Below are positions 18,940-60,226 of a DNA stretch of 64,000 nucleotides, piece after piece. The position numbers and the translations under genes are program-made. Source of the DNA: Bryoerythrophyllum caledonicum (lineage: Eukaryota > Streptophyta > Bryopsida > Pottiales > Pottiaceae); contig OZ020517.1 in assembly GCA_963971425.1 (NCBI GenBank), positions 1,738,501-1,802,500 on the forward strand, written 5' to 3'. How positions within the stretch are numbered: the first letter of the stretch is position 1; each line of letters starts with the position of its first letter. The notes below the pieces were generated by a model, which saw nothing but the letters and a program-made list of their open reading frames with translations, made no database searches and was not told the DNA's origin.

Positions 18940-20236
18940 AGGTTGCCAGGGGCTCCATCCCTTTAAGTACGAGGGGAGCGCTTTGTGAGCTCCCATGCCC
19001 GGCCTACTCCGCTCCACCTCGCATCGGCTGCTCTTGTTGTTGGTTTGGCCTTCCGTATTTTCGTCCAGGTGATGCTATTCGGAGGACGTTTGCGGTGGAT
19101 GTGCTGAACATCACTCGCACGCCTTCGTAACACAAGTAAGTTTTCTCGACCTTCATAAATTGCGACCTACATTTCTGGTTGGTGATCAGTGATGCTTTGA
19201 TCTTTGTTTCAGGTGTTGTTTCTTAATCTCTAGGTGTGATAGTGAAGTTTTGTGGGATTGTGTGGGATATTTTTCTGGAAAAACCGGTGCTAATTGTGAA
19301 TACTATAGTCCATGTCCCTTGGTGTGGAGCTGAAAGCATGTTGATTGTTTTGAGTTCAAATTAGCGTTATCAGGGTTCGGCTCTTTGTCTATTCTATCCT
19401 TCATCTTCCAGAACGTCTTTGATATTTGAGGATAGCATCGAGCTGGGGTCATGATTCCTCAATTGTACCTTAACCGAATACAAGTGGGTATCTTGAAGGG
19501 TGGGATTGTGGGTGGAGGATTAGGAGGTTGTTTGGAGAGCTTCAAGTTATTTTCATGTGTTTGACATGCGTAGGTTTTGCAAGAAGTTGGCATTTTGGGC
19601 CTCAAGGATGGTTTGGTTCAAGTTTAGCTGCAGAACACCTTGCCGGCAGTCTTTTGGTCGCAATTCCGTCGTTGAGCGGGAGGAAGTTGAAGCATATGCA
19701 TATTCTTGTATGAACGTGTATTGTACGAAACGTGGACAAGTTTCGCACGTTCTTTGGCTGTTCTATCCTTCATCTTCCGAAATAACTTGGATAGTATATT
19801 AATACCACTGAGCTGGGAATACGATCCTTCAGTTATACGTGTTATCCAGATTCAAGTGGCTAAGTTGAATGTTAAGGCTGTGCTGGGTGGATCAGGAAGT
19901 TGTTCTAGAGCTTCAGGATACAGTCCGTTTTTGACATACGAAGTTCTGCAGGACATCGCGAGCATTTCGCGCCATTTTGAGGACTATCTGGGCCAGCGTT
20001 AGCTGCAGAGGATCTCAAGTATGTACAAGTTCTCAGTATCAGTTTTCTGGTACGTCTGGCGGTTCCAATCCTATCTTTCAGCCGGAGGAAGTTGAGCACA
20101 TGCATATATTCTTGTATGAACGTTTATTGGCATTGATCCGGGATAGGTCTGAAAGATCAGGGAAAGTGGAATAGACGATCTTCGCTCTTACACCAAGCCT
20201 TTGACTGGTACTGTTGTTGCGCCATTGACCGGCCAG
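18940..20236 (+). promoter_or_regulatory. Leader region of HET gene A
   Basis: From 18950 it aligns with block B from 34350, including an apparent 5' splice site in both copies (ACACAA|GTAAGT at 19132-19143; GCACAA|GTGAGT at 34536). This implies a shared, spliced 5' leader. A further conserved open segment (19790-20000) matches 34915-35120 but cannot be called coding. Copy A also duplicates a short internal segment (19380-19520 resembles 19750-19880). Confidence 0.5.
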
Positions 20237-22534
20237 ATGGTAAGAGAGCCTGGAATACGGGGGATCCCAGCAGAAATGGGACGTAGTTTGGAAAATCTCT
20301 GCGGATTATGCAGAATGTTCGATTTCGATTCACTAGGCCTTAAACATAGGGACTTTAAGTTGCAGCACGATTTGGAAAAGACCTCGGAACTTGAAAGTTT
20401 TAACCCGCACATGTCGCACATTGAAAGAAGGGCTCAGATATGTGTTATCTGTAGAGAGGTGACTGGGTTTTATAATCAATGGAAATGCGAAAACAACGCT
20501 CTTTTAGATCCTAATCATGACACAGAGGGCGATTATGCTCATTTTTTTATAGATGAGCCACCGTTGAGATCCAATGATCCTGAAAGTAATGACAAGTTGG
20601 TCCGAATGTTTGTTCACCTGGCTATAAAAAATTCGCGACTTCCTGATAGTCTACAAGGTTATTATCGTCCTCTTCTTCAGTTTCAAAAATGGATTCCAGA
20701 ACGGCCTCTAGAAGGGAATGGGAAAAGTGCAGTAGAGCAACCTTACAACGGTCGTAAGAGGGGCGTACTAGTAAACCAAACACAACTTCTCGATTGGAAG
20801 AAAGTTTGCGACAAAAACCATGGTAACTACTGCAAGTCAAACTCCAATATCATGGAGCACCTTGATGTCATTCGACTCATTGATGTACAGCAAAGGTGTG
20901 TTACAGTGAAAAAGGGTGGCGAGCTTGCAAACCTGGAGTATGCCGCCTTGAGCTATGTATGGGGTGGTAAGGACGCGCTTGGTGGGCTTAAAATGCCCAA
21001 GCTTGTGTATCGTGGAGAGAACTGTGAAGAGGCCTTGCGGCAACCAGGGGCTCTGAAACCAGAGAAAGTACTTAGAACCATTGACGATGCCATGACGTTC
21101 GTAGATGGAGGGCTTAAGTTAAAGTATCTTTGGGTTGATTGCCTCTGCATCTTGCAAGCTGGAGATGACAATATCAGCGACAATGATACTAAAGCCGATC
21201 AAAAAAGGTTCATTAATGCCATGGACTCCATTTATGCTTGTGCGTCGGTCACGATTGTTGCAGCTGCCGGAGACAATGCTAATGCAGGACTTCCCGGTAT
21301 CAACCGACATTTTGTAGGAGAACGCATGGAACAGAACCCTCTTCAAATCCAGAAAAGAGATAAGCCGACGGTGTCATTAGTCCGAACACTTGACCTAGAG
21401 GGATCCGACGAGGAAGAATATTTTGATTATAGGTATGTTGGAGGATCTACATGGGACACAAGAGGTTGGACCTTCCAAGAGAAGATCTTTTCTCGAAGAA
21501 CGTTCATATTCACCAAGATGCAAGTATATTGGGAATGCCAAGCAGCCACATGGTGTGAAGATAGCATTTGGGAGACCACGGAACCTTCATTTTATTGTCA
21601 TTGCTTTAATGCAGATGAGTTTCGCCTGCCCTGGAACAATATGGATGAAGGCGAATTTGAAGGGAAATATCGAAAGCTGGTTGAGGAGTATACTGGGCGG
21701 AAGTTGACACAAGAGAGCGATGGTCTGGATGCATTTACGGGTATTTTGAATGCCTTAGGAAGGGGAACTGGTGATCCCAAACAAGAGTTTAAATGGGGTC
21801 TACCGTTGTCTTTGCTAGCCAATGCTTTGAAGTGGCGGTGTCATCCTTATAAACCGGTGGAGATTGCCCTTAAAAGCAGAACCGAGAAGCATCGTAGTTG
21901 TCCTTTTCCAAGCTGGTCATGGGTTGGATGGGTGGGGAAGGTAGAAATGCCCTCTGCATTAAATGCAGAAATGGTCGATTTGCAATTTTATTTCCTCGAT
22001 GACATTGCAAAAAAACTCGTCAAGCTTGAGTGTAGTACAATGCATCTCGATTCCATGATTCAACAAATCAGAAAACCTAATGACCCGATCCACGTTCACA
22101 TCAGCGACAAAGAAGTTCAAAGAGCCCTCCCGAGATCTGTTGCTTCAAATATATTATTCTTTTGGAGCAGTGTTGCGAGATTCCGTATCCGAGTTGGGCC
22201 AACTCCTGTGATAAATAATACAAATCTAATTTATAGTCGTGAAATCGCCACAGATATCCACATTGATGTGTCGGTTCACACTTTGTTTCATGTGCCATTA
22301 CTTCCTTTAGAGTCTACACATGGTGAATATGAGCTTGTTGTCATTGGGAGACTTGACCCATGGGATTTGGGAAGGCCTCCAACAAATGAGGAGATGGTTG
22401 AGTGTAAAGATCAGTTAGCTGTGTTGGTATGCTCTGAAAATGAAGGCGTAGTATATCGGAAGGGACTCGTGCACATCCATATTACGGAGTGGAAGAGATG
22501 TGAACCAGAATGGAAATTGATTTGTCTTGGCTGA
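20237..22534 (+). CDS. HET-domain protein, copy A (765 aa, intact)
   Basis: Heterokaryon-incompatibility-type protein. The HET domain is best known from fungi, where it triggers cell death on non-self recognition. The start is the first ATG of the open frame (20237). The N-terminus has two CxxC pairs (CGLC near residue 21, CVIC near 68), common in fungal HET proteins. The HET domain spans roughly residues 215-385: LEYAALSYVWGG (about 233), YLWVDCLCILQAGDD (about 298), AMDSIYACASVTIVAAAGDN (about 330) and then WDTRGWTFQEKIFSRR. The C-terminal third contains CPFPSWSWVGWVG and ends EPEWKLICLG. The ORF is single-exon and unbroken. Copy B is very similar; copy C is broken. Function in this host is unknown. 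Confidence 0.9.
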   Translation: MVREPGIRGIPAEMGRSLENLCGLCRMFDFDSLGLKHRDFKLQHDLEKTSELESFNPHMSHIERRAQICVICREVTGFYNQWKCENNALLDPNHDTEGDYAHFFIDEPPLRSNDPESNDKLVRMFVHLAIKNSRLPDSLQGYYRPLLQFQKWIPERPLEGNGKSAVEQPYNGRKRGVLVNQTQLLDWKKVCDKNHGNYCKSNSNIMEHLDVIRLIDVQQRCVTVKKGGELANLEYAALSYVWGGKDALGGLKMPKLVYRGENCEEALRQPGALKPEKVLRTIDDAMTFVDGGLKLKYLWVDCLCILQAGDDNISDNDTKADQKRFINAMDSIYACASVTIVAAAGDNANAGLPGINRHFVGERMEQNPLQIQKRDKPTVSLVRTLDLEGSDEEEYFDYRYVGGSTWDTRGWTFQEKIFSRRTFIFTKMQVYWECQAATWCEDSIWETTEPSFYCHCFNADEFRLPWNNMDEGEFEGKYRKLVEEYTGRKLTQESDGLDAFTGILNALGRGTGDPKQEFKWGLPLSLLANALKWRCHPYKPVEIALKSRTEKHRSCPFPSWSWVGWVGKVEMPSALNAEMVDLQFYFLDDIAKKLVKLECSTMHLDSMIQQIRKPNDPIHVHISDKEVQRALPRSVASNILFFWSSVARFRIRVGPTPVINNTNLIYSREIATDIHIDVSVHTLFHVPLLPLESTHGEYELVVIGRLDPWDLGRPPTNEEMVECKDQLAVLVCSENEGVVYRKGLVHIHITEWKRCEPEWKLICLG

Positions 22535-33924: not shown

Positions 33925-35356
33925 CGAGGAAGGTGGGGGCCTTCAATCACGTCTAAACAAAGCCCAGAACTCCCAAAATGAAGACACTGGTCACCAACTT
34001 CAGAGAATTGGAAGAGATGTAGCCACAGCAGCACGTCGTGAACCCGAAAAGCATGCACAGCATTCGAGGCTTCTTGTTGAAGTAGCGGTCTTCGCTCCTT
34101 CTGACGGAAGCACCCGGACGAGGTGGGAGCAGACAAGACTTTTAATGCACGGTGCAATAATGCCGGCAGTCTGTTTCGACATGGGTGACCTAGTCGCCCT
34201 GAAAGTCATGCACGCTACTGTACCGTGAATGACTATAAAAAATCGCACGTTGACTGAGAGAAGGGAAATCACCGGGCCCACATAGCGCCAAGCAATGTTG
34301 CCCAGAGACGCCGAACGTCATCTCTTCTTCCTTCTCTGTATGGACTCTGGAGGTCAGCCCGCTCCGTAAGTACCAGAGGAGCGCTTCGAGTGCCTACGCG
34401 CCCGGCTTGCCCTCCACCTTGCATCAGCTGCTCTTGCTGTCGGGTCGACCTTGTGTATTTTCGTCTTGGTGGTGCTGTTCGGAGGCAGGTTGGCAGTGGA
34501 GGTGCTGGACATCGGTCGCGTCCCTTTGTGGCACAAGTGAGTGTCTTCTGAGTCGTGATGAAATGTCGACAGTTTTGGGTGATGAGTGACCCTCTGATCT
34601 TTGTTGATTGAGGTATAATTGTAGTGAATTTTCACAGTGGGATCGTGTAGAAGTCGGTGATTGTCATTGCGGGGAATGTCTCTCTTGCCTTGGAACTCAT
34701 GTGTGCACGGTGATTGTTTTAGGATTCGAATGAACGTTATTCTGCCACCTCACTGAGGGTTGCTTGGATGGATCTAATATGCATGGCTCATATAGCGAGT
34801 CTTTGTACCTCAATACTTTGAATCTGCATACATGTTCATTCTGAAGGAGGGTTTGGACAAGTTTCGCATGTTCCTTTGGCGGTTCTTTATGATCTTCCGA
34901 AATAACTTGGATAGTATATTCATACCACTGAGCTGGGAATACGATCCTTCAGGTATACGTGTTATCCAGATACAAGTGGCTAACTTGACTGTTAAGGCTG
35001 TGCTGGGTGGATCAGGAAGTTGTTCTAGAGCTTCAGGGTACACTCCGTTTTTGACATACGAAGTTCTGCAGGACATTGCGAGCACTTTGCGCCATTTTGA
35101 GGACTATCTGGGTCAGCTTTAGCTGCAGAGGATCTCCAGAGTGTACTAGATCTCAGTATCAGTTTTCTGGTACGTCTGGCAGCTTCGATTCTATCTTTCT
35201 GCCGGAGGAAGTTGAGCACATGCATATATTCTTGTATGAACGTTTATTGGCATTGACCCAGGATAGGTCTGAAAGATCAGGGAAAGTGGAATAGACGATC
35301 TTCGCTCTCACACCAAGCCTTCCACTGCTAATGTTGTTGCGCCATTGACCGGCCAG
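33925..35356 (+). promoter_or_regulatory. 5' part and leader of HET block B
   Basis: Aligns with 16900-17620 and 18950-20236 of block A but lacks the hairpin cluster and the cysteine-synthase relic. An exon-like open segment (34405-34540, ending at a GTGAGT donor) encodes LASAALAVGSTLCIFVLVVL, a hydrophobic stretch not preserved in frame in copy A. Confidence 0.5.
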
Positions 35357-37606
35357 ATGGTAAGAGAGCCTGGAATACGGGGGATCCCAGCAGAAATGAA
35401 ACGTAGTTCGGAAAACCCCTGTGGGCTATGCAGAAACCTCGATTTCGATTCACTAGGCCTTAAACCTGGGGACTTTCCGTTGCTTCACGGTGCGTATACG
35501 AGTGATTTAAGACCAAAAATCTTGGAAATCAAAAGTAGGGCTGGGACATGTGTTATCTGTAGCGAGGTGTTTGAGTTTTATGCTCAATGGATAAACCAAA
35601 ACAAAGCTCTTTTAGATCGCTATCATGACAAGAAGGACGATGCGGCTCATTTTTTTATTGATAAACTAGGGTTGGGATCCTATTACCCTCAAAATCCTAA
35701 GTTGGTCCGAATGTTTGTTCACGTGTTTATAAGAAATTCGCGAGTTCCTTCTAGTACACCAGGTCATTATTTAGATGGTTATTATCGTCTTCTTCTTCAG
35801 TTTCAAAAATGGATTCCAGAACGGTTGGTAGAAGGGAATGGGAAACGCGCAGTAGAGCAACCTTACAACGGTCGTAAGAGGGGCGTACTAGTAAACCAAA
35901 CACAACTTCTCGATTGGAAGAAAGTTTGCGACAAAAACCATGGTAACTCCTGCAAGTCAGACATGAACATCATGAATCACCTTGATTTCATTCGACTCGT
36001 TGATGTACAGCAAAGGTGTGTTACAGCGAAAAAGGGTGGCGAGCTTGCAAACCTGGAGTATGCCGCCTTGAGCTATGTATGGGGTGGTAAGGACGCGCTT
36101 GGTGGGCTTAAAATGCCCAAGCTAATGTACCGTGGAGAGAACTGTGAAGAGGCCTTGCGGCAACCCGGGGCTCTGAAACGAGAGAAAGTACTTAGAACCA
36201 TTGACGATGCCATGACGTTCGTAGATGGAGGGCTTAAGTTAAAGTATCTTTGGGTCGATTGTCTCTGCATCTTGCAAGCTGGAGATGACAATATCAGCGA
36301 CAATGATACTAAAGCCGATCAGAAAATGTTCATTGATGCCATGGACTCCATTTATGCTTGTGCGTCGGTCACGATTGTTGCAGCTGCCGGAGACAATGCT
36401 AATGCAGGACTTCCCGGTATCAACCGACATTTTGTAGGAGAACGCATGGAACAGAACCCTCTTCAAATCCAGAAAAGAGATAAGTCGACGATGTCATTAG
36501 TTCGAACACTTGACCTAGAGGGATCCGGGGAGGCAAGTTATTCTCAATATAGGTATGTTGGAGGATCTACATGGGACACAAGAGGTTGGACCTTCCAAGA
36601 GAAGATCTTTTCTCGAAGAACGTTCATATTCACCAATATGCAAGTATATTGGGAATGCCAAGCAGCCACATGGTATGAAGATAGCATTTGGGAGACCACG
36701 GAACCTTTTTTTTATCGTCATTGCTTTAATGCAGATGAGTTTCGCCTGCCCTGGATCAATATGGATAAAGGCAAATTTGAAGGGAAATATGGAAAGCTGG
36801 TTGAGGAATATACTCGGCGGAAGTTGACACAAGAGAGCGATGGTCTGGATGCATTTACGGGTATTTTGAATGTCTTAGGAAGGGGAACTGGTGATCTCAA
36901 ACAAGAGTTTAAGTGGGGTCTACCGTTGTCTTTGCTAGCCAATGCTTTGCAGTGGGGGAGTCATCGTGATCAACCGGTGGAGATTGCCCTTAAAAGCAGA
37001 ACCGAGAAGCATCGTCGTTGTCCTTTTCCAAGCTGGTCATGGGTTGGATGGGTGGGGATGGTAGAAATGCGCTCTGCATTAAATGCAGATACGGTCGATT
37101 TGCAGTTTTATTTCCTCGATGACAGTGCTAAAATACTTGTCAAGGTTGAGTGTGTTACAAGGTGTAACGATTTCTGGATTGTACATATCAAGAATCGTGG
37201 TGACCGGGTCGATGTCCACATCAATGACATAGAAGTTCAAAGAGCCCTCCCCAGATCTGTTGCTTCAAATATACTATTCTTTTGGAGCAGCGCTGCAAGG
37301 TTCCGTATCCGAGGCGCTCCAAGTCAAGGCCCTTTATTTTGTAGTCGTGAAATCGCCACAGATAAGCACATTGAAGTGCTCGTTTGGAATTCGTTGCAAA
37401 GGCCATTAATTCCTCCAAAGTCTACACAAGCTGAATATGAGTTTGTTGTCATTGGAAGGCATAAGCCAGGATATGGGGAAATGAATGTGTTAGTATGCTG
37501 TGAAAACGAAAATGAAGGCGTAGTATATCGGAAGGGACTCGTGCAGATGGATATTATAGATTGGAGGAGATGTGAACCAGAATGGAAATTGATTTGTCTT
37601 GGGTGA
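35357..37606 (+). CDS. HET-domain protein, copy B (749 aa, intact)
   Basis: Paralogue of the ORF at 20237, near-identical over the HET domain (LEYAALSYVWGG, YLWVDCLCILQAGDD, AMDSIYACASVTIVAAAG, WDTRGWTFQEKIFSRR) and more diverged in two places: the region around residues 40-140 between the CxxC pair and the HET domain, and the last 150 residues before EPEWKLICLG. The CxxC pairs (CGLC, CVIC) are kept. The start is the ATG aligned with the start of copy A. There are no introns or lesions. Divergence concentrated outside the HET core would fit a variable recognition region, but this is inference. Confidence 0.9.
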   Translation: MVREPGIRGIPAEMKRSSENPCGLCRNLDFDSLGLKPGDFPLLHGAYTSDLRPKILEIKSRAGTCVICSEVFEFYAQWINQNKALLDRYHDKKDDAAHFFIDKLGLGSYYPQNPKLVRMFVHVFIRNSRVPSSTPGHYLDGYYRLLLQFQKWIPERLVEGNGKRAVEQPYNGRKRGVLVNQTQLLDWKKVCDKNHGNSCKSDMNIMNHLDFIRLVDVQQRCVTAKKGGELANLEYAALSYVWGGKDALGGLKMPKLMYRGENCEEALRQPGALKREKVLRTIDDAMTFVDGGLKLKYLWVDCLCILQAGDDNISDNDTKADQKMFIDAMDSIYACASVTIVAAAGDNANAGLPGINRHFVGERMEQNPLQIQKRDKSTMSLVRTLDLEGSGEASYSQYRYVGGSTWDTRGWTFQEKIFSRRTFIFTNMQVYWECQAATWYEDSIWETTEPFFYRHCFNADEFRLPWINMDKGKFEGKYGKLVEEYTRRKLTQESDGLDAFTGILNVLGRGTGDLKQEFKWGLPLSLLANALQWGSHRDQPVEIALKSRTEKHRRCPFPSWSWVGWVGMVEMRSALNADTVDLQFYFLDDSAKILVKVECVTRCNDFWIVHIKNRGDRVDVHINDIEVQRALPRSVASNILFFWSSAARFRIRGAPSQGPLFCSREIATDKHIEVLVWNSLQRPLIPPKSTQAEYEFVVIGRHKPGYGEMNVLVCCENENEGVVYRKGLVQMDIIDWRRCEPEWKLICLG

Positions 37607-38318
37607 CAAATGCCCAATTTATAAAGTATCTATAGTTACATGAGTTTTAGGGTTGCATGTGCTCATATACTCATGTATTTTCTGTAATTTGTTGTGAATA
37701 CATAGTTCAATTGTACTTCTTTCGGCCTAGTTTGTTTCTTGAAAAATTGAGTGTCATGGGTTTGCAAGTATGATATTTCTCAACTAGCTTGTCCATTGTC
37801 AAAGGCTTGAATCTATAGACTCTAACAAATGGCAAGTTGTGCATTAGTGAGTATCTACTAGATGAACATCAATGATGTAGTATTTTGAGCAATCCATAAG
37901 TGTAAGGAATCTTACATTGTTTTCAATGATAGAATTAGCTCCCAAGTTTTCAATGTATATTTTAAGTTTTACATGTAACTACTTATGTTGTCACAAAGAA
38001 GATACATTTGAACGTTGCTAATTGTTCAAGACAAAAGAACATTACTTTTCTACAAAAGACATTATGTAGATTGTATCTTATGTAAATACTTTGTTGTAGC
38101 ACAAAATTTAATTCCAACAATTTTGAAAGGTGATCATTGATGACAATGTTGATCTTGTTAGTATGTTTCCTCATTTGAATCCCGGAAACCCATTGTCAAG
38201 AGCGATTCTAATAGAGAAATATTTAGCACCAACTTCTACAAGATTATTATCAACATCAAGGTAAAAGAAAAAAAAATCGAACAAATCACCTCCATAATGA
38301 GGGTAAGATACTTCGTTT

Positions 38319-39639
38319 ATGCTATGGACTCCATCTATGGACTCCATCTATGGACTCCATCTATGGACTCCATCTATGGACTCCATCTATGGACTCCATC
38401 TATGGACTCCATCTATGGATGCGCGCTTCTCACCATCGTTGCAGCTTCAGGAGATAATGCAAATGCTGGGCTTCTTGGTATCCGTAGTGATCGATGTAGC
38501 CAAGAAGTAATTAGACTGAAAAATGGTATATCATTATTGCAGACCCTTGATCCAAAGGGAAACCCAAAGTCTTTTGCGAGTTTTAAATATGCTGGAGGAT
38601 CAACTTGGAGTACAAGAGGTTGGACTTTCCAAGAGAAGATTCTGTCTCGGAGAACGTTAATATTCACAAAGGAGCAAGTATATTGGGAATGCCATGGAGC
38701 CTCATGGTGTGAAGATAGCTTCTGGGAGACGAAGAAATCTCCAATTCTTTATCGTCAATGTGTAGACGCAGATGCATTTTGCCTGCCGTGGATTTATGAT
38801 AATGATATATTATATTTATGTAGGTATGAAAAGTTGGTTTCGGAGTATATAGAGCGGAAGCTGACAAGGAGGAGCGATAGTCTCAGAGCATTTCAGGGTA
38901 TTTTGAATGCCTTAGAGATAGGACCTGCCAAACATGAATTCCTTTGGGGTTTACCGCAGCCTTTCCTTGCCAATGCATTGATGTGGACTATTGTTTATGA
39001 AACAAGAAATGAAAGTTGCCCTATCTCTACAAGCAGTGATGATACTTGGGATTGTCCAAGCTGGTCGTGGGTCGGATGGGTGGGGATGGTAGAATCTCTA
39101 CGCTATCAAATACATGGGCAAATGCTTGACGTGCATTTCTATTACCTCGATGGTGCAACAAAACTTGTAGAAGTTCAACATCATGCTAACTTCACAAGCC
39201 TTTCCGACAGATTTCCAATGAGAAATCATACTGACAGGATCAACGTTGACATCAATGACAGTCAAGTTCAAGAGGTCCTCTCTAAATTCTGTCGCTTCAA
39301 ATATATTATTCTTTTAGAGCAGTGCCGCAAAATTTCATGTCCAAGTTGAGCGAGAAACACCTTGTTCTTGTGAACTACTAAAGTTGAGACATGTTATCGC
39401 CGAAGGTGTCACTTTCGAATTTTGTAATATGTCACTTCCTACACATGTAAGTGAGTGTGAGCTTATTGTGATTGGGTCATTCCACAATCCCTTTGAGTTC
39501 GATATTGCTTATGTAAACGTGTTGGTATGCTATGAGAAGGATGGCATACTATATAGTATATAGGATGGGACTAGAGAACATCCATACTAGGGAGTGGATG
39601 GATTGCAGACCATATTGGAAATTGATTTGTCTTGGTTGA
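38319..39639 (+). pseudogene. HET-domain gene, copy C, 5'-truncated and frameshifted
   Basis: Begins at the AMDSIY motif of the HET domain, continues with LTIVAASGDNANAGLLGI, WSTRGWTFQEKILSRR and CPSWSWVGWVGM, and ends in another frame with YWKLICLG and a stop at 39637-39639. The first half of the gene, including the core LEYAALSYVWGG motif, is missing. Frame is lost near 39300 and again near 39550. It is the most diverged of the three copies. Confidence 0.85.
38322..38416. repeat. 13-bp minisatellite inside HET copy C
   Basis: Seven head-to-tail units of TATGGACTCCATC at the codons for MDSIY. Three units make 39 bases (13 codons), so translation cycles through MDSIYGLHLWTPS. Six extra units add 78 bases, which keeps the reading frame. 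Confidence 0.92.
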
Positions 39640-48192: not shown

Positions 48193-48290
48193 TCAAGTGT
48201 TGCACCAAGCCTTAGACTCAAGAGGGTGGAGGCAGCGACGCTATCTTGTGAACAATGAGCAGCGAGCGGCGAGCGGTGAGCATAAAAAAT
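48193..48290 (+). repeat. Left inverted terminal repeat of the large MULE
   Basis: Pairs with 59966-60226. The best stretches are GTTGCACCAAGCCT, GCTATCTTGTGA and the GCGAGCGGCGAGC run. Confidence 0.65.
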
Positions 48291-48650
48291 CCTAAAATCT
48301 GGAATTCTATTGTCAATTTTTTGAGAAAAACGTGAAATTTGAGGTTCTTTCAGTCGATTATCAAGTTTTGGTGAATTTTTTTCAAAAAACATCTAATTTA
48401 AGGAATTGCCCTATAGCCGTGGTAACTAGCGAAATTGGGTGTTTTTAATTTATTTCGGTCTTTTAGAGTTCCCTGCTTTAGTTTAAGGGTATGTCATTTT
48501 GTTTTTTTTGGAACCCCTACATTTGTAAATTGCCATATTAGGTTACAAAGCAGATATTTACTTAGGTTCAAGACAACGTCGCGGTAGAATATCATACGAA
48601 GCGGACAATTTTGGACAATACTTGCTGATTTATGATATTGTTGATCTTTG

Positions 48651-48735
48651 GATACAACGGGTATCACCTAGGTATTAAGTGGATATTTCATTGGTATTAA
48701 ACCGGTACCACATTCGATTTACATGGGTATTAACT
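48651..48735. repeat. Subterminal GGTAT iterons, left
   Basis: ACAACGGGTATC is followed by repeated GGTATT, GGATATT, GGTATT, GGTACC and GGGTATT at roughly 10-16 base spacing. A similar cluster lies near the right end at 59576-59680. Confidence 0.55.
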
Positions 48736-49038
48736 TTTAACTATGAATTGCACGGAAATCACCTTCCCATTCCATGCATATCAACGGTACAAATGTTTCA
48801 TTCTTTTTCCACAATATTGGCAGTCTCCATTTCTCATGACTTCTGTATAAAATCGTCCACTTCAAACTGTAGAACATGCTAAGTACAGGAATCTACTGCT
48901 CAGAATAATATAATGAAATATATTAATTGAATTCATGACCATCAGCTATAGTCATGAAATCAATGACGGACTGAGTATGTATACATGATGCTTCACTTGA
49001 GCAACCTAGAAACATAGATACTTCAGATACAGACGACT

Positions 49039-52000
49039 TCAGCACCTTCCTGACGCTCGTTTGGTGATGTTGGCAAGCTCGAGAATGCGCGTAACTTCGT
49101 TAAAGCTGTAGCTTGGAGCATGCATGAACATGTCCTCTTTGTAGTCCATCTTACTTAGGTAACGTAAGATGTAATACACATGTTTGCAATACTTCCATTG
49201 CCCCTTCTTTCCCAACGCTTTGGATTGCATCTTCAAAAAATCACGGCATGAGCATCCTGGGAGGTCCGTAAACGTGACGCAATAGGACTTGTCCTTCCCC
49301 ATGTCAAGAGTGATAATGCATCCCCATCCCGGATACGGTATGGCAAACAGGTTCGAGACGTAGCAGTTATTCATAAGAGCTGCGCTTGACCACTTGTTGC
49401 GTTGGTCAATTGTGGGAGCATTTGTTGTTCTACGAATCACGTAGCCATTCCGAAAGTTGTGGTGAGAATTGGGATTTGTTGGAATGGGGAAGTGAGAACG
49501 CGGAAGAGGCATGTCCATAGACACTTGGAATTGTCTTCGTGGTGAAAGAGCTCCACGCTGTTGCAATTGGAAACTTGCTTCCTCCAATGCTAAAACCTCA
49601 TGCACAGTTAAATTTGTGCCAAGTTCCACAGGCCACGATATTGGAACTGATGGCCAATCCATGGCAAATGCTTTCTTCAACCCCTTTACACAGCGGCCTA
49701 CATCATCTGGACAAAACCAAACTCCACAGTAACATTACAGGGCAATCTGTAATCCTTCGTCATACCCGAATAGGTGGGGGCGGGAGTTCCATGACTTCCA
49801 CATACAACTTTGGTGTTGCAGGGCTCACTAGTATCAGCGTGCAATGCTTGGCATTTTCAAGCACTTTTTGGAGAGCCGAGCAATGTGCCACTTAGACGGA
49901 TCACAGTCCGATTCAAGAACGGATGTTGTATGTTGGACACCAGAGTCGTGTCCGCCAAGGGCCTCTTCGATGCGAGCCCGAGTCACCCTTTTACCATAGG
50001 GGGGAATTGAATAGTTCACCGTATCGGACCTGTGCGAATCATGAGACAACCCGGGTGGCATGTCAAGCTTGCGCTTCGTGGATCCAAAAACCTCCGCACC
50101 TTCTAAGCCATATGTCCTGGTTAGTAAATCCTCAGCTCCGGGGAAGTTCCTAACAACATTAGCTATGAGTTTAGGATCACTCAAACATTGTGCGGATTGC
50201 AACCGAAGCGTACCTTTGTCCGGACCTTTTCCCAACGCGCCGCCCTTCAACCATGCTCAATACGAAGTAATTTGCATGAAAGCTCGGATGAGGTCGTCTA
50301 CGGTTGCTGCGTATAGACACGTCATTGTGTTTCCGGAGTGTTAGAGCCATCGATTGTGGACTGTTTCGGCAAGGTTGTAGGAAGGCATGTCAGCCCTCTC
50401 GTCAAGCGTCAGATCCTGAGGAAACGCAACAATCGTCAATAAAAAGAGGTTGATTACTGTGAAGGATTTAATGGAATGTAAACTATATAGAGCATGAAGA
50501 CCGCTTACAAACTGCATTGCGCCGCCCCATTGTCGATAACAGAAGTGCCAGAATGCTATTCAATCCTCGAGAGCACGACGTCCGATTTCGGTAGTGGCAC
50601 TAGATGACAACCACTATGCTCAAATTACATTGTACTGAGCTTCAGCCTCGTCATGGATCTTCGCATTTTTCGAGATTTTGGAGAGGGCAATAAGTTGCTC
50701 TTGGAAGCCAGGAAGAATACTTTTGGAGGTCGCACGCTGAAGACACTTTGTCCAATGAAATAAGCATGTTCGTTCTCTATTATCTATGGGCTTGTCCTTG
50801 TCACCGCTGCCATATACTCGCCGAACGGCATGCCAATTCGCACGAGCACTATCAGCCATGAAGCCTTTGAAGTTAATGTCTTCTAGGCCATGCTGTCTCA
50901 TTGTATCATTTAGATTCTTCCAGAACAACTATTGTGCTTGAGCATCCTCGGATTGCATATCGCACATGGCAATTGTCATTACCTTACAATATTTGTTGTC
51001 GTACACATGACATGCCATGGTAGTCCAATCCTTGACTCGTTTGACATGATCAAACATCAACCAACAATCTTCAAGGTCATTCCTGGGTTGCATACGCCTA
51101 ACGAGGTCTACACCACTTCCACATCGGTCGACAGACATTTTAAAAATGAATACTTTACCTTGAGACTGGCCTGGAAACTTGTTTTCGTGGATGAAGACGA
51201 ATTTGGACGACTCCTTCAACTCCATGATGTTGTCCATTACACCCTTCCCTCCACTGTAGAACTTTTTGCACGTGGACACTAGATTCCTTATATTCGGAGA
51301 TGAAAGAGTCTTGAATTGATCAAGGATAGCATCTAAAGATGCTTCTTCAAGGTTGGACAACTTAGATTGTGGACGGATCAGGTAGTCGGAGAGAAAATTC
51401 TTGCTCGCAGCTATGACAATTGTTGAATTAGTAGCCTCTGGCGTACGTTGAACTTCTTTTGCTACGCAATCGTGTATGACGTCCATGGCATCTTGATCTA
51501 CGCCTTTCGAGATTGGATGAAGATGATGCCCCAAATGGATTGCAGCGCGTGTTCGATCGGGATCGATAGATGTCACATAGTATATACGTGCATCACAAAG
51601 AGCAAGACAAATTAGAGGGGTTTGGCAAACCTTACATGAGAGCGTAGATTTCTCGGATGGTGCTCCATTCACTGAAAATAGAGTGAACGCAAATCCGCTC
51701 CACTCGGTATGATTCGAGCGCCCATCGCTTCGTGATTGATAATCACAAGTGATGTTAGGGCACTGTAGATGCCCCGTACATACAGATTTCCGGTACGTAA
51801 GACCAAAATCGTTCTTGATATTTGTAGTCATTGTCTTGCACCACGTGTGACCATCGTATTCTTTACTCATCCCATCTAGGCCCCCCCCAAACTGTGGAGG
51901 AATACCCTCCGGTAGTAGAGGAAGTTCAAATATCATGTCTCCATCATACTTTGGAGGCAAATACTTATCATGTTTCAAATCAAAACTATCGATATCAATT

Positions 52001-52616
52001 CAAGACAACTCAGACCTGGACCCTTTCCTATTACAGGTTTGTTGGACATGAATAAGTATGCTTCGGACATTTCTCAAGCTAGGATGAACTGGGGGCTTCT
52101 CTAAGGAATGAGACGGAGACGCTTGAGCATATGATGGAACTCGGGTAGAAATAGTACGAGTAGCTAACTGATGAGACGAGGTCCAGGGGATCCTTGACTC
52201 ACCAAGGTTCACATCAGAAAGTTCATCTTCCTCTGTATCGCTAAGAATATGGACGCTTGGGATAGACCCAGTGCCTAAACCGGACACGAGTTTGGTATCA
52301 CCAGAATTGATCGGATGAGTCATCACGGCTACGGACGCATGAGCGGCCATTTGAACATCTGTAATACCGAATATTTTGAATGAACCATGACACAAGTTCC
52401 AGAAAAATCCTACCACGTCACTATCTTTCACTTGATAAATAGACTACTCGTGAATACCAACGCTATCATAGACCTCTTGTTTAATGTGGATTGTCTCAGT
52501 CCAATAACCAAAACGAACACATAGCAATGACTCGAAGATACAGACTGTGCCATTGTCGCCAATGGGCACGACAAGTGGAGGGCCGCCTTGATGGCAAGTA
52601 AGAGACGCCATGTACA
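49039..52616 (-). pseudogene. MULE transposase with SWIM zinc finger, stop-riddled but in frame
   Basis: The reading starts at MYMASLTCHQGGPPLVVPIG (52616) and stays in one frame to 49039 apart from one intron (about 50506-50414). Landmarks: a Cys-rich N-terminal segment (CTGHLQCPNITCDY near 51760), MTIAMCDMQSED then FKGFMADSARANWHAVRRVY and RERTCLFHWTK (MULE core, near 50970-50740), DLTLDERADMPSYNLAETVH (50410), and a SWIM finger CSCRDFLKMQSK...WKYCKHVYY (C-x-C-xn-C-x-H, near 49250-49170). About a dozen stops interrupt it (for example 52444-52446, 52000-52002, 50929-50931). Most would be Gln or Arg codons before a C-to-T change. Not translatable as it stands. Confidence 0.85.
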
Positions 52617-52726
52617 TCGACTACCAGAGGCGGTGTGAGGTTCTGTAATGTGCAATGACAACGGAATTGCAAAAGAGAGATAGAACTAGCTTCCCTCCCT
52701 CGTTCAAATATTGTACTCGTAAACAA

Positions 52727-52830
52727 TTGATTACAGCGGAAACATATAATTTTATAAAATGTGAGATTACGGCGGAAATCTAAAATTTATGATAGAGTGA
52801 GATTACGGCGGAAATATATAAATTAAGAAA
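52727..52830. repeat. ~42-bp tandem repeat, about three units
   Basis: GATTACGGCGGAAAT recurs at about 52730 (as GATTACAGCGGAAAC), 52766 and 52800, each followed by an AT-rich spacer. It lies just upstream of the MULE transposase start. Confidence 0.7.
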
Positions 52831-53344
52831 GAATATTCCTTTCCAGCCTGCTGGCGGCTTGAGTGTACAATGCCACAAATTAAGATACAAGTTTAATTTG
52901 GAATTGAAAAGTCGTGAGCTGGAACACCAATTAACAATATTATTGGTTGTCTCGTTGTAATGGGTCATAAATTGATATTTAGCATTTCTTGCCGTCATTA
53001 TTCAAATATGAAGATGCTTTACTTAAATAGAGCCCCGTAATTGACAGCGCCAATAGAAAATTAAATGAGACGGCTATTGTAGGGCTACGCAACAGCTGAT
53101 AAATTACAAGATCTGAGAAAAACTTAAGAATAAGTAGTAGGTTTTTGGTGTTAATGGAAGCAAGACAGAGTAGAACAAGGGCTCTAATACCGCAACGAAG
53201 GAGTATTGCACTCAGTTGTTTGGGCTCATAGGGAGCTTCTGATGTTAAAAGAAAGTGTGGAGGAGCGGTTTGGCTATCGTGTAGATGATGACTAAGATAG
53301 GTGGACGGAAGAAGTAAAGTACCAATTTCTCTAATCCGAAGCAG

Positions 53345-53913
53345 ACGCGGGCCCGAAAGGATTGGCGACCACAACAGTCATTGTTGGCTGCTCAGAACCA
53401 GGAAGTGGAAACATCGGAATCGGGCAAACGATTTAGGGATTTGTCAAGTATCCACTAGGGACCGCATCCCGTCCAATCAAGGATTAAGGTATGTATGTTT
53501 GTCATTTCATTAAATATCTTTGGATTTGGCTAAATAGAAGAATGTCAATAGGTCCCTCTGATCTGGCCTCCCGGTTTGTTATTCAGGAGTCTAGCACCTT
53601 TGTTAGTATTCATGAGCATTTGATCGAGGCATACTCTATAAAAGATAACTCCATGAGAATGTATCAAAGATCCAGTACCGCAGAGACCTTGTTGCAAATA
53701 AATAAGGGATCTGAAGGCAGTATAGGCTAGTGTGACTACCATAATAGTGACTCAAGTGAAGAAATTGGGAGCCCTGGAAATCCATCACGACCCACAATGG
53801 TCGGAAACGGTTCTTCATCAAAGGCATCCGGTATTGGAGTAACGGCTCCACGAAGAGGCGCAGAGGACCTCGCGGATAAATTACCGGAACCTGAGAGGGA
53901 CCCACCAAATCAA
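53345..53913 (+). pseudogene. Possible 5' exons of the MULE cargo gene
   Basis: Open frames with coding-like composition: TVIVGCSEPGSGNIGIGQTI near 53380, then SIGPSDLASRFVIQESSTFV and on to PEPERDPPNQ ending at a GT at 53914. One TAG at 53728-53730 interrupts the second. The last segment ends in phase 0, matching the exon at 54303. I recognise no family. The junction between the two segments does not fit in phase, so their link is uncertain. Confidence 0.35.
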
Positions 53914-54302
53914 GTTTGTCACTATGCGATTGTTTTCTCATCAATGTGTACCCGTTCTGAGTTCATAATAGACTCATCTCATCGTGGTTCTCTTTGGCCA
54001 TAGAGCTCCCTACCAGTCAACTTACACCCAAGAATTAGGGTTTCTGATCCGTTCCAACCTTCTTGGGTTCAGCTCTTTCAGCTCGGCTCATTTCTGAAGA
54101 TGGCTGCGCTGTGTTCATGAGATGGGGAGAGTGGTTCCAAACTGACGTGCATCACACGATTGTGTGTGTAGCCAACATGGCACGTAGTGTATACTAGTAT
54201 GAGTCGCCTGGCTTTGCAGTACCCTAAACCGTCAACTTGCTTGCTTCCGGTTCTTCTTCGCGGTGGATTTTCTGATTCTTGCGAGTTCCATTGTCCTTGC
54301 AG

Positions 54303-57300
54303 GTTCTGTGCGTGGGAAAGAAGCGAGAAAATTCGAGGGCAGCCAAGGCGGAACTGCAGAAGATAATTGGTGGACTCCAGGTATGTCATTGCTACACAGA
54401 TATGCATCGAGTAGTATGTGGTTGATGTTTCAATGAGAATGTGTTTTATGTGTCGTAAGAAAGAGTTTGTGCGCTCCGTCGTGCTCACGTTCGCTCAGGA
54501 TAAGGTCATTAGAGGGTAGGCGATATCTGTGTGAGGGAGCAGAATTAGGGTTTTAATGGGGTGAGCTCGGGTGAGGTTGGAAAGGGTTTAGGAATCTGTG
54601 GGTTTGGTGAGGTAGGGGTGCGCTAGGGGGATGTGGGAGAGCGTGAGAGTCATAGAGGTTGGTTCAGGAGAGGGGCTTCCTCGTGGTATTGTGCACAGTG
54701 GCACGTGCTTGTATGTGAGTAGCAAAAGGTGATGAGTTAGCGCGTGAGAAGGCCCTCTCCAACAGGGAGGGGATTTCTCATTTTTTTCCAAAACCCGTGA
54801 TCCCTAAAAACGACTTGTAGATCCGAAAGCCATTTTTAGGGGTTACAGGTTTTTAAACAATTCCAGAAATCCTCTCCTTGCTAAAGAGATCTTTGTCGCG
54901 CGTGGAGTGTTCTCCCTTAGCTTGCTAGACACGATCACATGATTGTGGTCATTCTCATGGCAGTATCGCATCACTCAGCTAGGTGAGGGTACAGGGAGAG
55001 TGCGTTGGGGTGAGGTCGTGAGGGGTGGGAAAGGGGTGGAATGTGTGTGTGGAGTGAGGTTGGGGTGCGCTGTGGGGGATGTGGGAGGGCGTGAGAGTGG
55101 TAGAGGCTGGGGTAGGCAACAAACATTGCTTCATTACGCGTGTTGTCTTATTCATGCCCATGTTGGCCATGCTCCTCGGATTACATGAGCTGAGACTGAT
55201 TGTCCGTCTGTTTTAGATGTAGTTGTTGTGTCTTTTCCAATTTATGGTTCTGCTGGATTGAATTTGTGGCTTCGGTTTCTCATGAATACCTATTGCAGGT
55301 TGAGGCTATGGAACCTATAGCTAATTCTTTGGGTGAGGACCTTGACATTGTGGAAGACGAGGCAAGCGTCGCTGAACTTGTTGATGAGCTTGGGCTGGCT
55401 CCAACACTTCAGTCTTTGCGGAGGTCCATCCGTGGGACCTCTTACGACATCCTACAGAGCAGCATCTGCTCCATCGTTGGTGATCTCCCCATTCCGTTGT
55501 GCTGGATGGTGCCCATGACTGAGGTAAGATTACCACTTCGGAGCGATGTCGAGAAATTAAAGGGGGAGTTCGTGAAAGGGTAACGACCCGGTTCTGCATG
55601 TTTTTACGTGTTTGTGAAGAGTTTCTCCCTTGTGGAGAAGCAGGTGCTACTAGCAGACACGTCAACGTGGTCCGACTTTGGCTAGAGGAGGACAGGAAGT
55701 TTGAGGAGTTGTTGAAGACTCGTCCGGAGTACTCAGCATTTTTAGAAAAGTTCTTCTTCGTGTGGGGTGGCAATCATCGCCACATGGCTTGGACAGAGGC
55801 GATTTCCCAACTACATCCATTTGATGTCACCTTCCACGTGCCCGTTAGAGCCGACTATCGAGAACCAACACATCTTGCTCAACATAATGATTGACTTGAA
55901 CAGGTACGCACGAACAATATTATTCCAAACTTCGTTTAATTCAGTTGCTACAACTATTGTACTTCATTTAATGAAAATGAAATAATCTTTTGTTGTAGGC
56001 AAAAAGAATGTGATCACGTTGTGCAACACCTCACACATGACCTAAAGCGTGTTCAACATTTCGGCCTCTTAGAGTTTGAGCAGTTGAAGGGGCTCATCAG
56101 CGATGAAGACTACGAAGTTAGTGTCCTTGAGTGGTCGAAGAAGGGACAGCGGAAGTGGTATCATATGACTCTTGAAGCATTTGTAAAGCTCATGTATGAG
56201 GTACGTAATGATTCAGAAAGACCAGGTAGCACTTGCCATTCATCTCCATTCTATATTTTAGTTCAAAATTCTAAAACTGTTCATAACCTCATGTTGTCTA
56301 TAGTGGGACCTGATTGTTGTTCAAGAGGAGCAGATCCAAAAGTTTAAGGACAACTTGGTCACGGGTGTTAGTGAAGATTGGCGTGGAAGTGCTGCAGAGT
56401 TGGTGAGCCATTGCACTGAAGTCGTGCAAAAGAAGAAGACGACTTGCCAGACCATGCTCACTCGGATGTTGGCAATTGCCAACCCGGCTAACGGGGAGGA
56501 TTTCTTCAAAGAGGTAGGATATATGTTATTTATTTAATCCTTTTCCATAATGATTTCCTAACTTATGGCCTTGTAAACTCCACTCTAATGGTTGATATTG
56601 TGATGTAGGTGAATTGTCACTTTGATGTTTACCAAACGGGCGCGAGATGACTCCCGAGAAACTCCAGTTCATCGCCACGGCTAGGGTAGCAACGAAGTTC
56701 AAGTCGCGCTAGTGCAGGTGGTGGAATATGAGCAAGAGCAGCAGGATGGAGTATAACTTCCCCGCGTTGCCAGCGTCGGATAAAGTTCTTCGTGGCTGGA
56801 TTGACAAGGCATCGTTTTGGGCTGGGATAAGGTCCAATCTTTCTTGACATTCACATCTTTTTCGTATGATTGCTCTATGATCAATTCCTAACTATATGGA
56901 TTTCGTCTTACAGCTAGAAGAAGAGTGTGAGAAGTTCTACGTAGAGATTCTCCTTGAGAACAACATTGTCCTTAAGACTGAAGGGCTTCCGAATCTCGTC
57001 CCCGCCATTGGAAAATGGATTGAGGCAAAGAGCATGACGTTGTGAACGAAGGTGTTCTCTACTCACATCGGAAAGGGGGGCTCCTACACCAAGGGCGAGG
57101 AGTTTATGGCGCAGGAGGGTTGCGAGAAGGTTCTGAAGCGAGTAGTGATGGAATATTTTTGGAGGGTGCTCGTGGCCTATGGATCCTTGTTAGCCGGAGA
57201 TCTACCCATCCGTTTCACAAAGTGGATAGATACTTCTGCTCCCGAGTATATCTTCACAGATACTCAGAGGCATCGATTTTTTGTGCACCGCCTCCTGCAA

Positions 57301-59256
57301 TGCCCATGGTACTTGGAGATGCGGGAGGTGGATTCCACCCCTGGAGACGAGGTCCAGCTACAAGTAGCCTGCAAATCCATTGCGGTTCCTCCTGTTGTTG
57401 GCAGCGTACTTCCCTTATTGGCGGCTCCATTGGCAACGTCTGAGGAGCAATCCGAGAAGGCCAAAGCCAAGGCTGCTGAGAAAGTGGCTAAGGCAGTAAT
57501 TAAGGAACATGAGAGGGAGGCTATTAGGCTGGAGAAGGAGAGTTCAAAGAAGGAGAAGAAAGAGATGAAGGGGAGGTATAAGTAGTTCGTGGCGTTGGTG
57601 GTGAAGGAGGGGCCTCAGAAGCTGTTTACTCAACTAGGGGGATTTGGAGGATTTGCAGTCCCTCCAGCGGTGACATTGACGATGGGCGTTTCACCCTCAG
57701 CTAGCACCCGACCTTCTATCTTTGATGTGAAGCCGTCGCAGATGGTGTACTCGATTCCAATATTCGATCATCCTCAGTAATCTACTGTTGTGAAGGTGAT
57801 GTGTGAGAGTGCCTTCTCCATTATGTCTCTATTTGAAAGTGTCGTTGTGGAGGGTGACGAATTGACAGCTTGGAAGGAGCTTCGCTTGTTTTTGAAACAG
57901 CACTCGGGCTCACGGCATTGGTGACATGAGGCATTGAATTACACTCTAGGTTTGGCGGATATGGTATTGTTCGACGTTCCGGAGGATTTACGAGTCCCCG
58001 ACATTGATGGCGGCATCGACGTACCGAATTGGAACAAGCTTCCAACTCGGTTATCAAACGGAGCTAAGAAAGAATCCCATTGGATTTTCCGGGCCTTTGA
58101 GATGGTTGGGGCGTTGCTTCGTGATGGGGCGTTGCTTCGTGATGGGGCGCCGCTTATCGTGTTCTACCCGGATTTTAAGTTCATCTCCAATGAACTTGTA
58201 GCCTGGGCCGATTGGGCGGGATTTGTCGAGGAGGCAAAGTGGTTTGCCATCAACGGGCTGCCACTTTTCTGCGATGGCCACCTTGGGCGCACTCATAAGT
58301 GCTTCCTTGTGAAGTGCTTCGTGAGGAAACTGGATCCAACGGTTCCATTCTCTTTCTTTGATAGGATGGAGCTGCAAAGAGATGGGATTCAGCTGTCTTC
58401 AGGTGGTCACATTACTAATCTCATTACTTAGGAGACGCTGACCATAAAAGCGGATAGCGACGTACCATGGCGTGGTGCGCGAGAGAAGTCCACGAACCTC
58501 ATACATGCTCTGATTGATCTCTGCACTCAGAAGGATGACATTGTCCTGGATCTCACCGCGTCTACTGGTTAGTTAATTCCATTACAAAATTCTTTTGTTT
58601 TACTCTCGCTTCCTAATGCTAACATCATATGATTTGTTTGTTTCATGAAGGGGCGTCTATTAAGGCCTGCAAGGCTCTTAAGCAGCACATTTTGGCACTG
58701 GAGGAGGACCGAGAGTTGGTGGAAGAAATCCTCCTTCTTTTGATCCTTGACAATGTTGACGTCGAGTCAGCACCGCCACTAGTGGTGGCGAAAGGCTCTC
58801 GCAAGCGCCCCTTGGAGGTTGTTGACGACGAGCTTGAGGTGTAGACCGTCCCGAAGAGACGTTGTAAGTAAGTCCTTCACTTATTTGGTTCTAATTTTAG
58901 AATGCGGTTTACAGTTCTGGCTTGACACATGCTTAAATTCTTAATAAGACTTTAATTTGTGCAGTCGGCCATCGTCGTTGATGGCATCATTGTCAAGGAC
59001 TCATGTTGGAGTGTTTTCTCCCTTGTTGTTGGAGGTGAAGAGCCCCACGCGTCGATTCCATTTGAATCCCTGGGATGCCGCTGTTGTAGACGCCATGGCA
59101 GCACAACATTCCCTTCCACGTCTTCAAACGGTAGTCCCACGTAGGTCCACTACATGTCCGTTCATAGATGGGGAGGCTTGCGTTAGTGGCTCGGAGAGTA
59201 GTGATAGTTTTTCGGACGATAGTAACTTCAATCACCTTTTCGCGGAGGGATCTTGA
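54303..59256 (+). pseudogene. ParB-like / beta-class DNA methyltransferase-like gene (decayed)
   Basis: Multi-exon gene: 54303-54380, 55299 to 55903, 56000 to about 56200, 56302-56513, about 56610-56831, 56914-58567, 58651 to about 58870 and about 58965-59256. The N-terminal half has a ParB/sulfiredoxin-like pattern: PIPLCWMVPMTEVRLPLRSD, a helix (VEKLKGEFVKG) and, after a frameshift near 55577, VWGGNHRHMAW (55760-55792), equivalent to the GNHR motif. The C-terminal half has LFDVPE (57967-57984) in the place of the DPPY motif, a region ending CFVRK, then EKSTNLIHALIDLC and DIVLDLTASTGASIKACKAL, a worn FxGxG SAM motif. DPPY-before-FxGxG order defines beta-class N4/N6 methyltransferases. Stops at 55892, 56711, 57043, 57583, 57778, 57922, 58429 and 58842 are all one C-to-T change from CAA, CAG or CGA. 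Catalytic activity is doubtful (D-V-P-E). Confidence 0.6.
54545..55125 (+). repeat. Direct repeat within the first intron of the cargo gene
   Basis: GGGTGCGCTAGGGGGATGTG with GAGCGTGAGAGTCATAGAGG (54615-54660) recurs as GGGTGCGCTGTGGGGGATGT with GGCGTGAGAGTGGTAGAGG (55062-55107). The G-rich sequence is unlike its surroundings. Confidence 0.6.
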
Positions 59257-59575
59257 TTCCTCTGCATTCGTTTGTTGTTTTGTTTTGCCATCATACTACC
59301 AGTTGGTTGTCTTCATCATTGTTCCATCGTGAGTCATCTTCATTCATGTCAATATTCCATTCTTTTCACGTATGTCTATCAAAAAACATCGTATGTCATG
59401 CTGCGTGATGAGAAGATTTCGTTCTATCTACAATTTAATATTTGATTCATTATAAATATCCTTTGTAACTTCGTTACATGTCCTCTGAGTTTACATGCTT
59501 CGTATCTTAGGCATTGCTATTTTTTAAACAACTGTTGTCGAAGAATAATTGGAATGTTTCAATTTAGAGTGGTTC

Positions 59576-59680
59576 GGACACAACGGGTATCTCCATGGTA
59601 TATAATTTTTATCCCCTAGGTATTACATGGATACCATCAAGGTATTATAAGGGTATGAACTAGGTATCACATGGATACTT
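59576..59680. repeat. Subterminal GGTAT iterons, right
   Basis: ACAACGGGTATC is followed by GGTATA, GGTATT, GGATACC, GGTATT, GGGTAT, GGTATC and GGATAC. Same sense orientation as the left cluster, about 550-650 bases inside the right terminus. Confidence 0.55.
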
Positions 59681-59965
59681 TCTGCCACCCTAAACCATAT
59701 AATTTCAAATTTTTCCATTGTATTTCTTAGTCTATTGACTTGTCGTAGTACCCTGAATTCTAAATCCTCACCCATAAGCGTCCCTTCCAATTTCAATTGA
59801 ATTGTTGCAATCAATCCTAAACTACTCATACTTCCATATGTCTAAGTACATCGTTGTCGTAAATTTCTATTTATTTTTCATATGTCAACACAATCTAAAT
59901 AGAACCCAGGGCCATAGGCAACACTTTCCAAATTCAACAAAAAATACTACCAATAAAATTCAAAA

Positions 59966-60226
59966 ATTCAGTGCTCAAAGCTCGCCGCTTGCCGCTTGCC
60001 GCTCACAAGATAGCAATCCTGAGGGTGGAGGAGGGTAGGGACAAAATCGGCTTCTATTTATTTGTTGGATGGAGGCCTATTTGATTAGAAGGGGGGGCTC
60101 TGAAGGGTAATTTGAGGCTGCAGGCCCCAAATTTGGCAATTTTTTCTTCAAAAGTCTCTAGAGCCCCAAAAGTGAGAAGGCTAGAAAAATGGACCCACCA
60201 AAGGCTGAGGCTTGGTGCAACGCTCG
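59966..60226 (-). repeat. Right inverted terminal repeat of the large MULE, with MITE-like insert
   Basis: Inverted relative to 48193-48290. It contains about 180 extra bases (60025-60205) resembling the inside of the 277-bp Mutator MITEs at 31.7 and 32.7 kb. Confidence 0.6.

Follow-up and report, generated by a model that had tools for sequence, protein, structure and literature searches.

The window analysed here (64,000 nt of the Bryoerythrophyllum caledonicum genome, G000:C4:1738501-1802500; the term denotes this whole stretch) contains a mobile element of 11,789 bp (48233–60021) with two genes, a decayed transposase gene on the minus strand and, on the plus strand, a gene whose product resembles a DNA methyltransferase towards its C-terminus. 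The two genes diverge from a shared central region. The genome in which copies of this element were compared comprises 437 Mb in 894 contigs. A fragment in its locus L008 resembles plant-type O-methyltransferases, among them those for caffeic acid (best E 1e-14), as expected of a land plant.

Element ends and target duplication

Termini were placed where the alignment between copies sharply begins and stops, together with the flanking duplications, giving a left end CAGCGACGCTATCTTGTGA and a right end TCACAAGATAGCAATCCTG (CAGCGAC...ATCCTG). The left terminal inverted repeat (48233–48282, plus strand) opens with these first 19 nt, the right one (59972–60021, minus strand) closes with the right-end sequence, and the two arms are 79% complementary over 43 nt (48240–48282 versus 59972–60014). 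Directly outside them stand two copies of AGGGTGGAGG (48223–48232 and 60022–60031), a target duplication that is perfect over 10 bp and that the first-pass annotation, made from the window sequence alone, had reported as absent. That annotation had drawn the element from an outer inverted pair, GTTGCACCAAGCCT, and an inner pair, GCTATCTTGTGA; both pairs are present, but the true termini sit 7 bp beyond the inner pair and the outer arms belong to an older repeat, so that neither boundary holds as first drawn.

The element inserted into this older inverted-ended repeat, which is ~225 bp long. As an element end GTTGCACCAAGCCT was rejected on two grounds, the 460 exact 14-mers found genome-wide (control, 1) and an alignment of the empty site. 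When the element and one copy of the duplication are removed, the GTTGCACCAAGCCT arms come to lie 210 bp apart, like those of other members of the repeat (nine plus/minus pairs at 142–221 bp among the places listed), and the rejoined flanks align through the junction with six of eight fetched repeat loci at 75–81% identity (in one case over 94 bp only); at L001 and L003 the alignment does not span the junction. Outside the element there thus remain a left remnant of the repeat (48199–48232, plus strand), placed by the 14-mer counts and the empty-site alignment, and a right remnant (60032–60221, plus strand) ending in AGGCTTGGTGCAAC. With its 460 exact end words, the abundant ~225-bp repeat is itself a candidate family of miniature inverted-repeat transposable elements.

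Two further copies have the same ends as the window element and align sharply from CAGCGAC to ATCCTG: copy a (C1:59684733 onward, 14,963 bp), flanked by a perfect 10-bp duplication GATTAATTCC, and copy b (C7, 15,485 bp), flanked by a perfect 10-bp duplication CAACACTTGA. Duplications are therefore perfect at 10 bp in all three copies inspected (window, a and b), with a different sequence in each. The large transposase exons (L042, L044) and large methylase exons (L038, L022) of copies a and b are stop-free; the window copy has five stops in its large methylase exon (L009) and six in its large transposase exon (L039), and is dead.

A very diverged Mutator-like transposase

The transposase gene of the window (49039–52611, minus strand) has decayed into open pieces at 49039–49680, 49834–50250, 50620–50928, 50929–51978 and 52000–52431, with homologues P0008–P0055. 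In line with its first annotation, it encodes a SWIM-like finger, CxCx19CxH (49180–49260, minus strand), and is read divergently from the plus-strand gene; the finger recurs when copy a is spliced. In that spliced model the DDE triad, picked by eye with the NLAET motif as guide to the E, consists of D521, D587 and E725, with a CH motif (C616xxH619) between the second D and the E; the spacings of 66 and 138 compare with 69 and 136 from Muta1 D214/D283/E419 (PMC5225508). ISCth4 was the best and sole convincing fold match of the transposase, the remaining fold matches being weak, and the protein fits the kinship with prokaryotic IS256 by which Mutator-like elements (MULEs) are recognized (PMC5225508); a target duplication of 8–11 bp is a further MULE hallmark (PMC6446971). 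The spliced 1,163-aa transposase matched no Pfam family, Transposase_mut was matched in two of 36 transposase homologues (best E 0.034, below the cut-off), and profile searches of the transposase and methylase families against the PDB returned nothing useful. We file the element as a MULE because of its terminal inverted repeats, duplication, triad and fold, and by sequence it appears to be a very diverged member, without a match to any curated sequence profile.

A second gene apparently laid out like a bacterial ParB-methylase

The plus-strand gene of the window comprises a probable upstream exon (54302–54380, predicted from splice signals only and weakly similar to copy a by eye), an exon with a ParB-like region (55299–55903, reading GGNHR), a large exon (56914–58567) with a lysine-rich region, motif IV DVPED (~57964–58000) and motif X followed by the start of motif I (~58468–58567), and a C-terminal exon (58651–58863) that finishes motif I and adds the strand after it (ILALEED). 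In copy a, six exons with GT..AG borders throughout join into 1,033 residues, a further upstream exon and the last exon being provisional. The front of this protein reads FFVWDGNHRH, and most relatives, a diverged copy among them, retain the DGNHR. The back of the protein carries motif IV (LLDVPEDLPVP), motif X (PWRGAREKS) and motif I (VLDLTASTGAS). The order IV, X, I, read off the alignment, is that of the beta class. The second protein, of at least ~1,030 residues, appears to be laid out like a bacterial ParB-methylase.

The first-pass annotation had called this gene ParB/methyltransferase-like and its product a DNA modification enzyme. The methyltransferase-like C-terminus is borne out: the 76-residue end piece of the window gene, spliced over one intron, matches Pfam N6_N4_Mtase (PF01555) at 30.2 bits (cut-off 26.7), and the back of the protein also matches DpnA (E 4e-5) and PHROG DNA methyltransferases. 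In motif IV, the acidic residue, the proline and the E (D343, P345 and E346 of P0003) do not vary among seven of seven homologues; the window and copy a both retain ILALEED, the acidic end of the strand that follows. The ParB label is a motif reading (DGNHR) without profile support, as nothing fitting the region was found in Pfam, the PDB or PHROGs.

The catalytic form of motif IV is [DNS]PP[YFW]. Several results weigh against an enzyme of the ParB-methylase type. DVPE, which lacks the aromatic residue, stands in six of seven genomic sequences (the seventh, L076, gave no pattern match), and DVPE or DIPE in the six homologues P0001–P0006. The six-exon protein of copy a scores 25.7 bits, just below the PF01555 cut-off of 26.7; PF02195 (ParB) was unmatched anywhere in the genome at E 10; and the methylase structure model was unusable (predicted local distance difference test score, pLDDT, 39.5). 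Since the motif IV test gives DVPE in place of [DNS]PP[YFW], we leave the second protein outside the DNA methyltransferases; with DVPE/DIPE replacing a DPPY-type motif, catalysis is doubtful and enzyme activity cannot be asserted, and the name DNA modification enzyme is unsupported.

We put the chance of an active DNA methyltransferase, as against a non-catalytic protein that binds S-adenosylmethionine (SAM), at less than even, though well within reach. Nearly an even chance attaches to a catalytically dead SAM- or DNA-binding accessory that plays a role like that of VANC or MURB and retains the methyltransferase fold as a scaffold only. The consistent absence of an aromatic residue from motif IV (DVPE), the changed motif I (LDLTASTGAS) and the purifying selection on the exon (below) would all suit such an accessory; the invariance of D343, P345 and E346 and the retention of ILALEED fit it less well, as a dead site might drift further, and non-canonical motif IV variants cannot be assumed inactive. 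We regard as rather unlikely a protein whose working part is the ParB-like region, acting as a nicking nuclease or a nucleoside triphosphate-dependent clamp that assists DNA repair or replication as the element transposes, while the methyltransferase plays a lesser part. The conservation of DGNHR, also in the diverged copy, points that way, as does the DNA nicking that a Bacillus cereus ParB-methylase is reported to carry out through its ParB domain (PMC5512222), but neither a profile nor a structure backs the ParB label.

The two genes spread as one unit

The left terminal 19-mer occurs with up to two mismatches at 647 places genome-wide (control, 0), and the reverse complement of the right terminal 19-mer at 701 (control, 2). 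A census of end pairs, drawn from 100 listed exact places per end on contigs common to both listings and limited to pairs within 30 kb, recovered at least 43 exact left–right pairs, of which 19 enclose both genes, 8 the transposase only, 4 the methylase only and 12 neither; the last three figures, which depend on the gene matches listed, are maxima. All 27 transposases and 23 methylases inside the 43 pairs have the expected strands. The 12 pairs without a detected gene span 5.1–17.9 kb; such elements may be non-autonomous, or may contain genes that have diverged further.

Pairing was also scored from the genes themselves, using a 165-residue methylase piece (150 scored matches) and a 349-residue transposase piece (116 matches). 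A methylase match lies within 15 kb of 72 of the 116 transposases, head-to-head in all 72 cases (chance ~1.2); adding 34 methylase places found with a distant query raises this to 75 of 116, again head-to-head without exception (75/75; chance ~1.5). Both gene matches fall within 20 kb of 20 of the 100 listed left ends. The distance from the left end to the transposase match is 2620–2724 or 3731–3734 bp in 25 of 31 cases; since the lower coordinate was taken whichever the strand, the two values lie roughly one match length apart. Nesting is seen here, the element itself lying within an older repeat, and two separate mobile elements could in principle have come to adjoin by nested insertion; the uniform head-to-head arrangement of the 75 pairs, the 19 exact-end pairs enclosing both genes and the two left-end distances reduce the probability of this to almost nothing. 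The pairing and the exact-end census instead support the unity assumed in the first-pass annotation, one mobile unit in which the methylase-like gene moves with the transposase. The gene is not confined to non-MULE loci, being paired with the transposase, and no empty site indicating separate arrival of the two genes was seen, the window's own being the one examined.

The partner extends to more distant transposases. P0012 as query (46% identical to the transposase of copy a) found 63 transposase places, of which three have a known methylase match nearby, in each case on the same strand, and are probably nested insertions. A reading of P0012-like transposases as lacking the partner gene was set aside, as the partner is present upstream of the one such copy inspected (1/1): a 4.5-kb stretch there holds the gene on the opposite strand, the ParB-like exon matching at 42% identity (E 4e-36) and a portion of the large methylase exon at E ~1e-9. 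With P0025 as query (44% identical to the transposase of copy a), 9 of 61 places have a PF01555 match within 20 kb (chance 0.8), head-to-head in eight of the nine.

Other counts pull against a fixed partnership. No methylase match lies within 15 kb of 41 of the 116 transposase matches and no transposase match accompanies 78 of the 150 methylase matches, in both cases partly owing to the limits of the matches listed. At 30 kb there are 82 pairs, one of them in the opposite arrangement. The 38 unpaired methylase matches on covered contigs have an exact left end at 13 and none at 25, and 55 of the 100 listed left ends are without either gene match within 20 kb. All nine PF01555 matches near P0025-type transposases are below the Pfam cut-off (E 0.3–8.8), and 138 PF01555 matches compared with the first three transposase lists gave no excess (3 versus 2.7 expected), a comparison that left out three of the 63 P0012 rows (contigs C522, C652 and C696).

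Two side observations concern these searches. A P0012-like transposase is nested in a 24-kb copy of the window family (G000:C12:16439339-16464139, also C12:16479171-16503970 and C879), with identical scores and spacings at the three places, so that the nested insertion has seemingly been triplicated. Separately, eight uninterrupted 153-residue frames score above the PF01555 cut-off (G000:C9:14278932, C3:25317, C3:3869951 and five more), away from every transposase match listed.

Selection on both genes

Among stop-free copies, the median ratio of nonsynonymous to synonymous substitution (dN/dS) is 0.14 for the large methylase exon (23 sequences, 134 pairs with dS > 0.03) and 0.21 for the large transposase exon (19 sequences, 98 pairs). 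Of the 31 sequences taken for each gene, the reference included, 8 for the methylase and 12 for the transposase had been removed because of stops or shortness; copy a stands twice in each set (as the reference and as L038 or L042), so the distinct places number 22 and 18, and the pairs are not independent. Between subfamilies that are 61–63% identical, dN/dS for the methylase is 0.15–0.20 at dS 1.4–1.8 (near saturation) and 0.12–0.13 at dS 0.9–1.0; the transposase gave 0.08–0.09 at dS ~1.8–2.1. Two near-identical methylase pairs, with few changes, gave 0.34 and 0.94. Both genes are under purifying selection. Of 25 methylase sequences, 7 have a neighbour within 0.5%, as do 11 of 27 for the transposase, counts that left out copies of unequal length (5/30 and 3/30, respectively), and such near-identical copies indicate recent spread.

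These values bear on passive capture, in which a host methylase-like gene was swept up by chance and then multiplied by hitch-hiking. MULEs are prone to acquiring host gene fragments (PMC6446971), but the consistent strands in the complete copies listed, a partner beside diverged transposases and dN/dS far under 1 make this highly improbable. The second gene is a standing partner, and the first-pass term 'cargo' is wrong because the gene is kept across subfamilies, with the methylase exon 61% identical, and is under purifying selection.

Repeats within the element

GGTAT/GGATA words, mostly 10–12 bp apart, form a left subterminal cluster (48650–48730, plus strand) and a right one in the same orientation (59586–59677, plus strand). 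The left 900 bp of the window copy hold seven words (300 shuffles: mean 1.75, maximum 6), and those of copies a and b four only, inside the shuffle range; the right 900 bp hold eight in all three copies (shuffle means 1.2–1.6, with 1.56 for the window; maximum 6 for the window in 300 shuffles and 5 for copies a and b). Copies a and b also have, between the genes, a central array of ~520–550-bp repeats (L069/L070 and L071/L072, joined ~7.2–11.2 kb), and the two copies differ in length by 522 bp, copy b being the longer. The window keeps at most a remnant of this array, two 37-bp repeats 448 bp apart (54626 and 55074).

Other genes in the window

The HET (heterokaryon incompatibility) domain family is best known from fungi. 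Two long open frames with this domain occur here in a plant genome, at 20201–22534 and 35345–37606 (plus strand; E 2.5e-23 and 9.6e-24), and a third, partial relative, recognized by eye, seemingly lies at 38297–39349. The window further contains a frame resembling an endonuclease of the LINE (long interspersed nuclear element) type, just below the Pfam cut-off (1568–2680, minus strand), and a Tc1/mariner-type transposase frame (4497–5153, plus strand).

Relation to known systems and proposed role

The genes of MuDR converge, whereas those of the present element read outward and its spliced transposase matches no Pfam model. Neither VANC nor MURB is known to be methyltransferase-like. In their overall design, MuDR (mudrA and mudrB) and VANDAL/Hiun (vanA, vanB and vanC) are nevertheless similar, having inverted ends, 8–11-bp duplications and a transposase with an element-specific second gene (PMC6446971, PMC5735166), and VANC counters silencing in a sequence-specific manner (PMC5735166). 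The TET/JBP genes of fungal transposons likewise supply a DNA-base-modifying enzyme as the second gene of cut-and-paste elements; they differ in oxidizing 5-methylcytosine and in belonging to fungal hAT, IS3EU, Harbinger, EnSpm and Plavaka lineages, not to MULEs or plants. By analogy, the second gene here may work like those of VANDAL and MuDR and like the fungal TET/JBP genes.

Transposon-carried DNA methyltransferases also occur in DIRS and LINE elements, which are retrotransposons with other methylase families. These carriers are not known to have a ParB-like region. Their enzymes comprise a bacterial-type, Dam-like adenine methylase in DIRS and DNMT in LINE/DIRS (PMC5890265). The ParB-methylase fusions of bacteria and phages are prokaryotic and are not intron-containing transposon genes. 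As far as is known, their motif IV is canonical. What they share with the second protein is a ParB-like region and an adenine-methylase-type domain in one chain (PMC5512222).

According to the first-pass annotation, a bacterial-style DNA modification enzyme carried by a MULE would give transposons a new way to act on host DNA marks. SET proteins modify histones and have an unrelated fold. A methyltransferase beside a MULE transposase as such is not new, since Phytophthora MuDR families carry SET histone methyltransferase genes (PMC12730594); of the DNA-methylase-like type we found no report in a MULE in the literature searched, as judged by titles and opening abstracts.

We consider it likely that the locus is a dead two-gene copy of a very diverged MULE, inserted in an older repeat, whose second protein is an accessory acting on DNA for the element; that this accessory is needed for spread or anti-silencing is probable to a slightly lesser degree. 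The VANC proteins of Arabidopsis MULEs induce methylation loss and their targets are often tandem repeats (PMC5735166), and by this analogy we propose that the second protein would bind repeats of its own element and mark or read DNA. It might bind at the GGTAT/GGATA clusters near the ends or at the repeats between the genes; its SAM-binding domain might write or recognize a mark on adenine or at N4 of cytosine, which could protect the element from host silencing or license its ends for excision. A stronger version, which we hold to be improbable though worth stating, is that a large plant MULE clade acquired a bacterial or phage ParB-methylase and employs it as an active enzyme that writes N6-methyladenine or N4-methylcytosine as a self-address on its own ends or subterminal repeats, shielding them from silencing by cytosine methylation or licensing transposition.

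N6-methyladenine in eukaryotes has been controversial (PMC12695648). A plant MULE clade with a ParB-methylase-like gene under purifying selection would add an independent solution to those by which transposons of fungi (TET/JBP), retrotransposons (Dam-like, DNMT) and, by other means, Arabidopsis elements (VANC) rewrite or read DNA marks, and might, if true, introduce adenine or N4-cytosine methylation into the nuclear DNA of plants.

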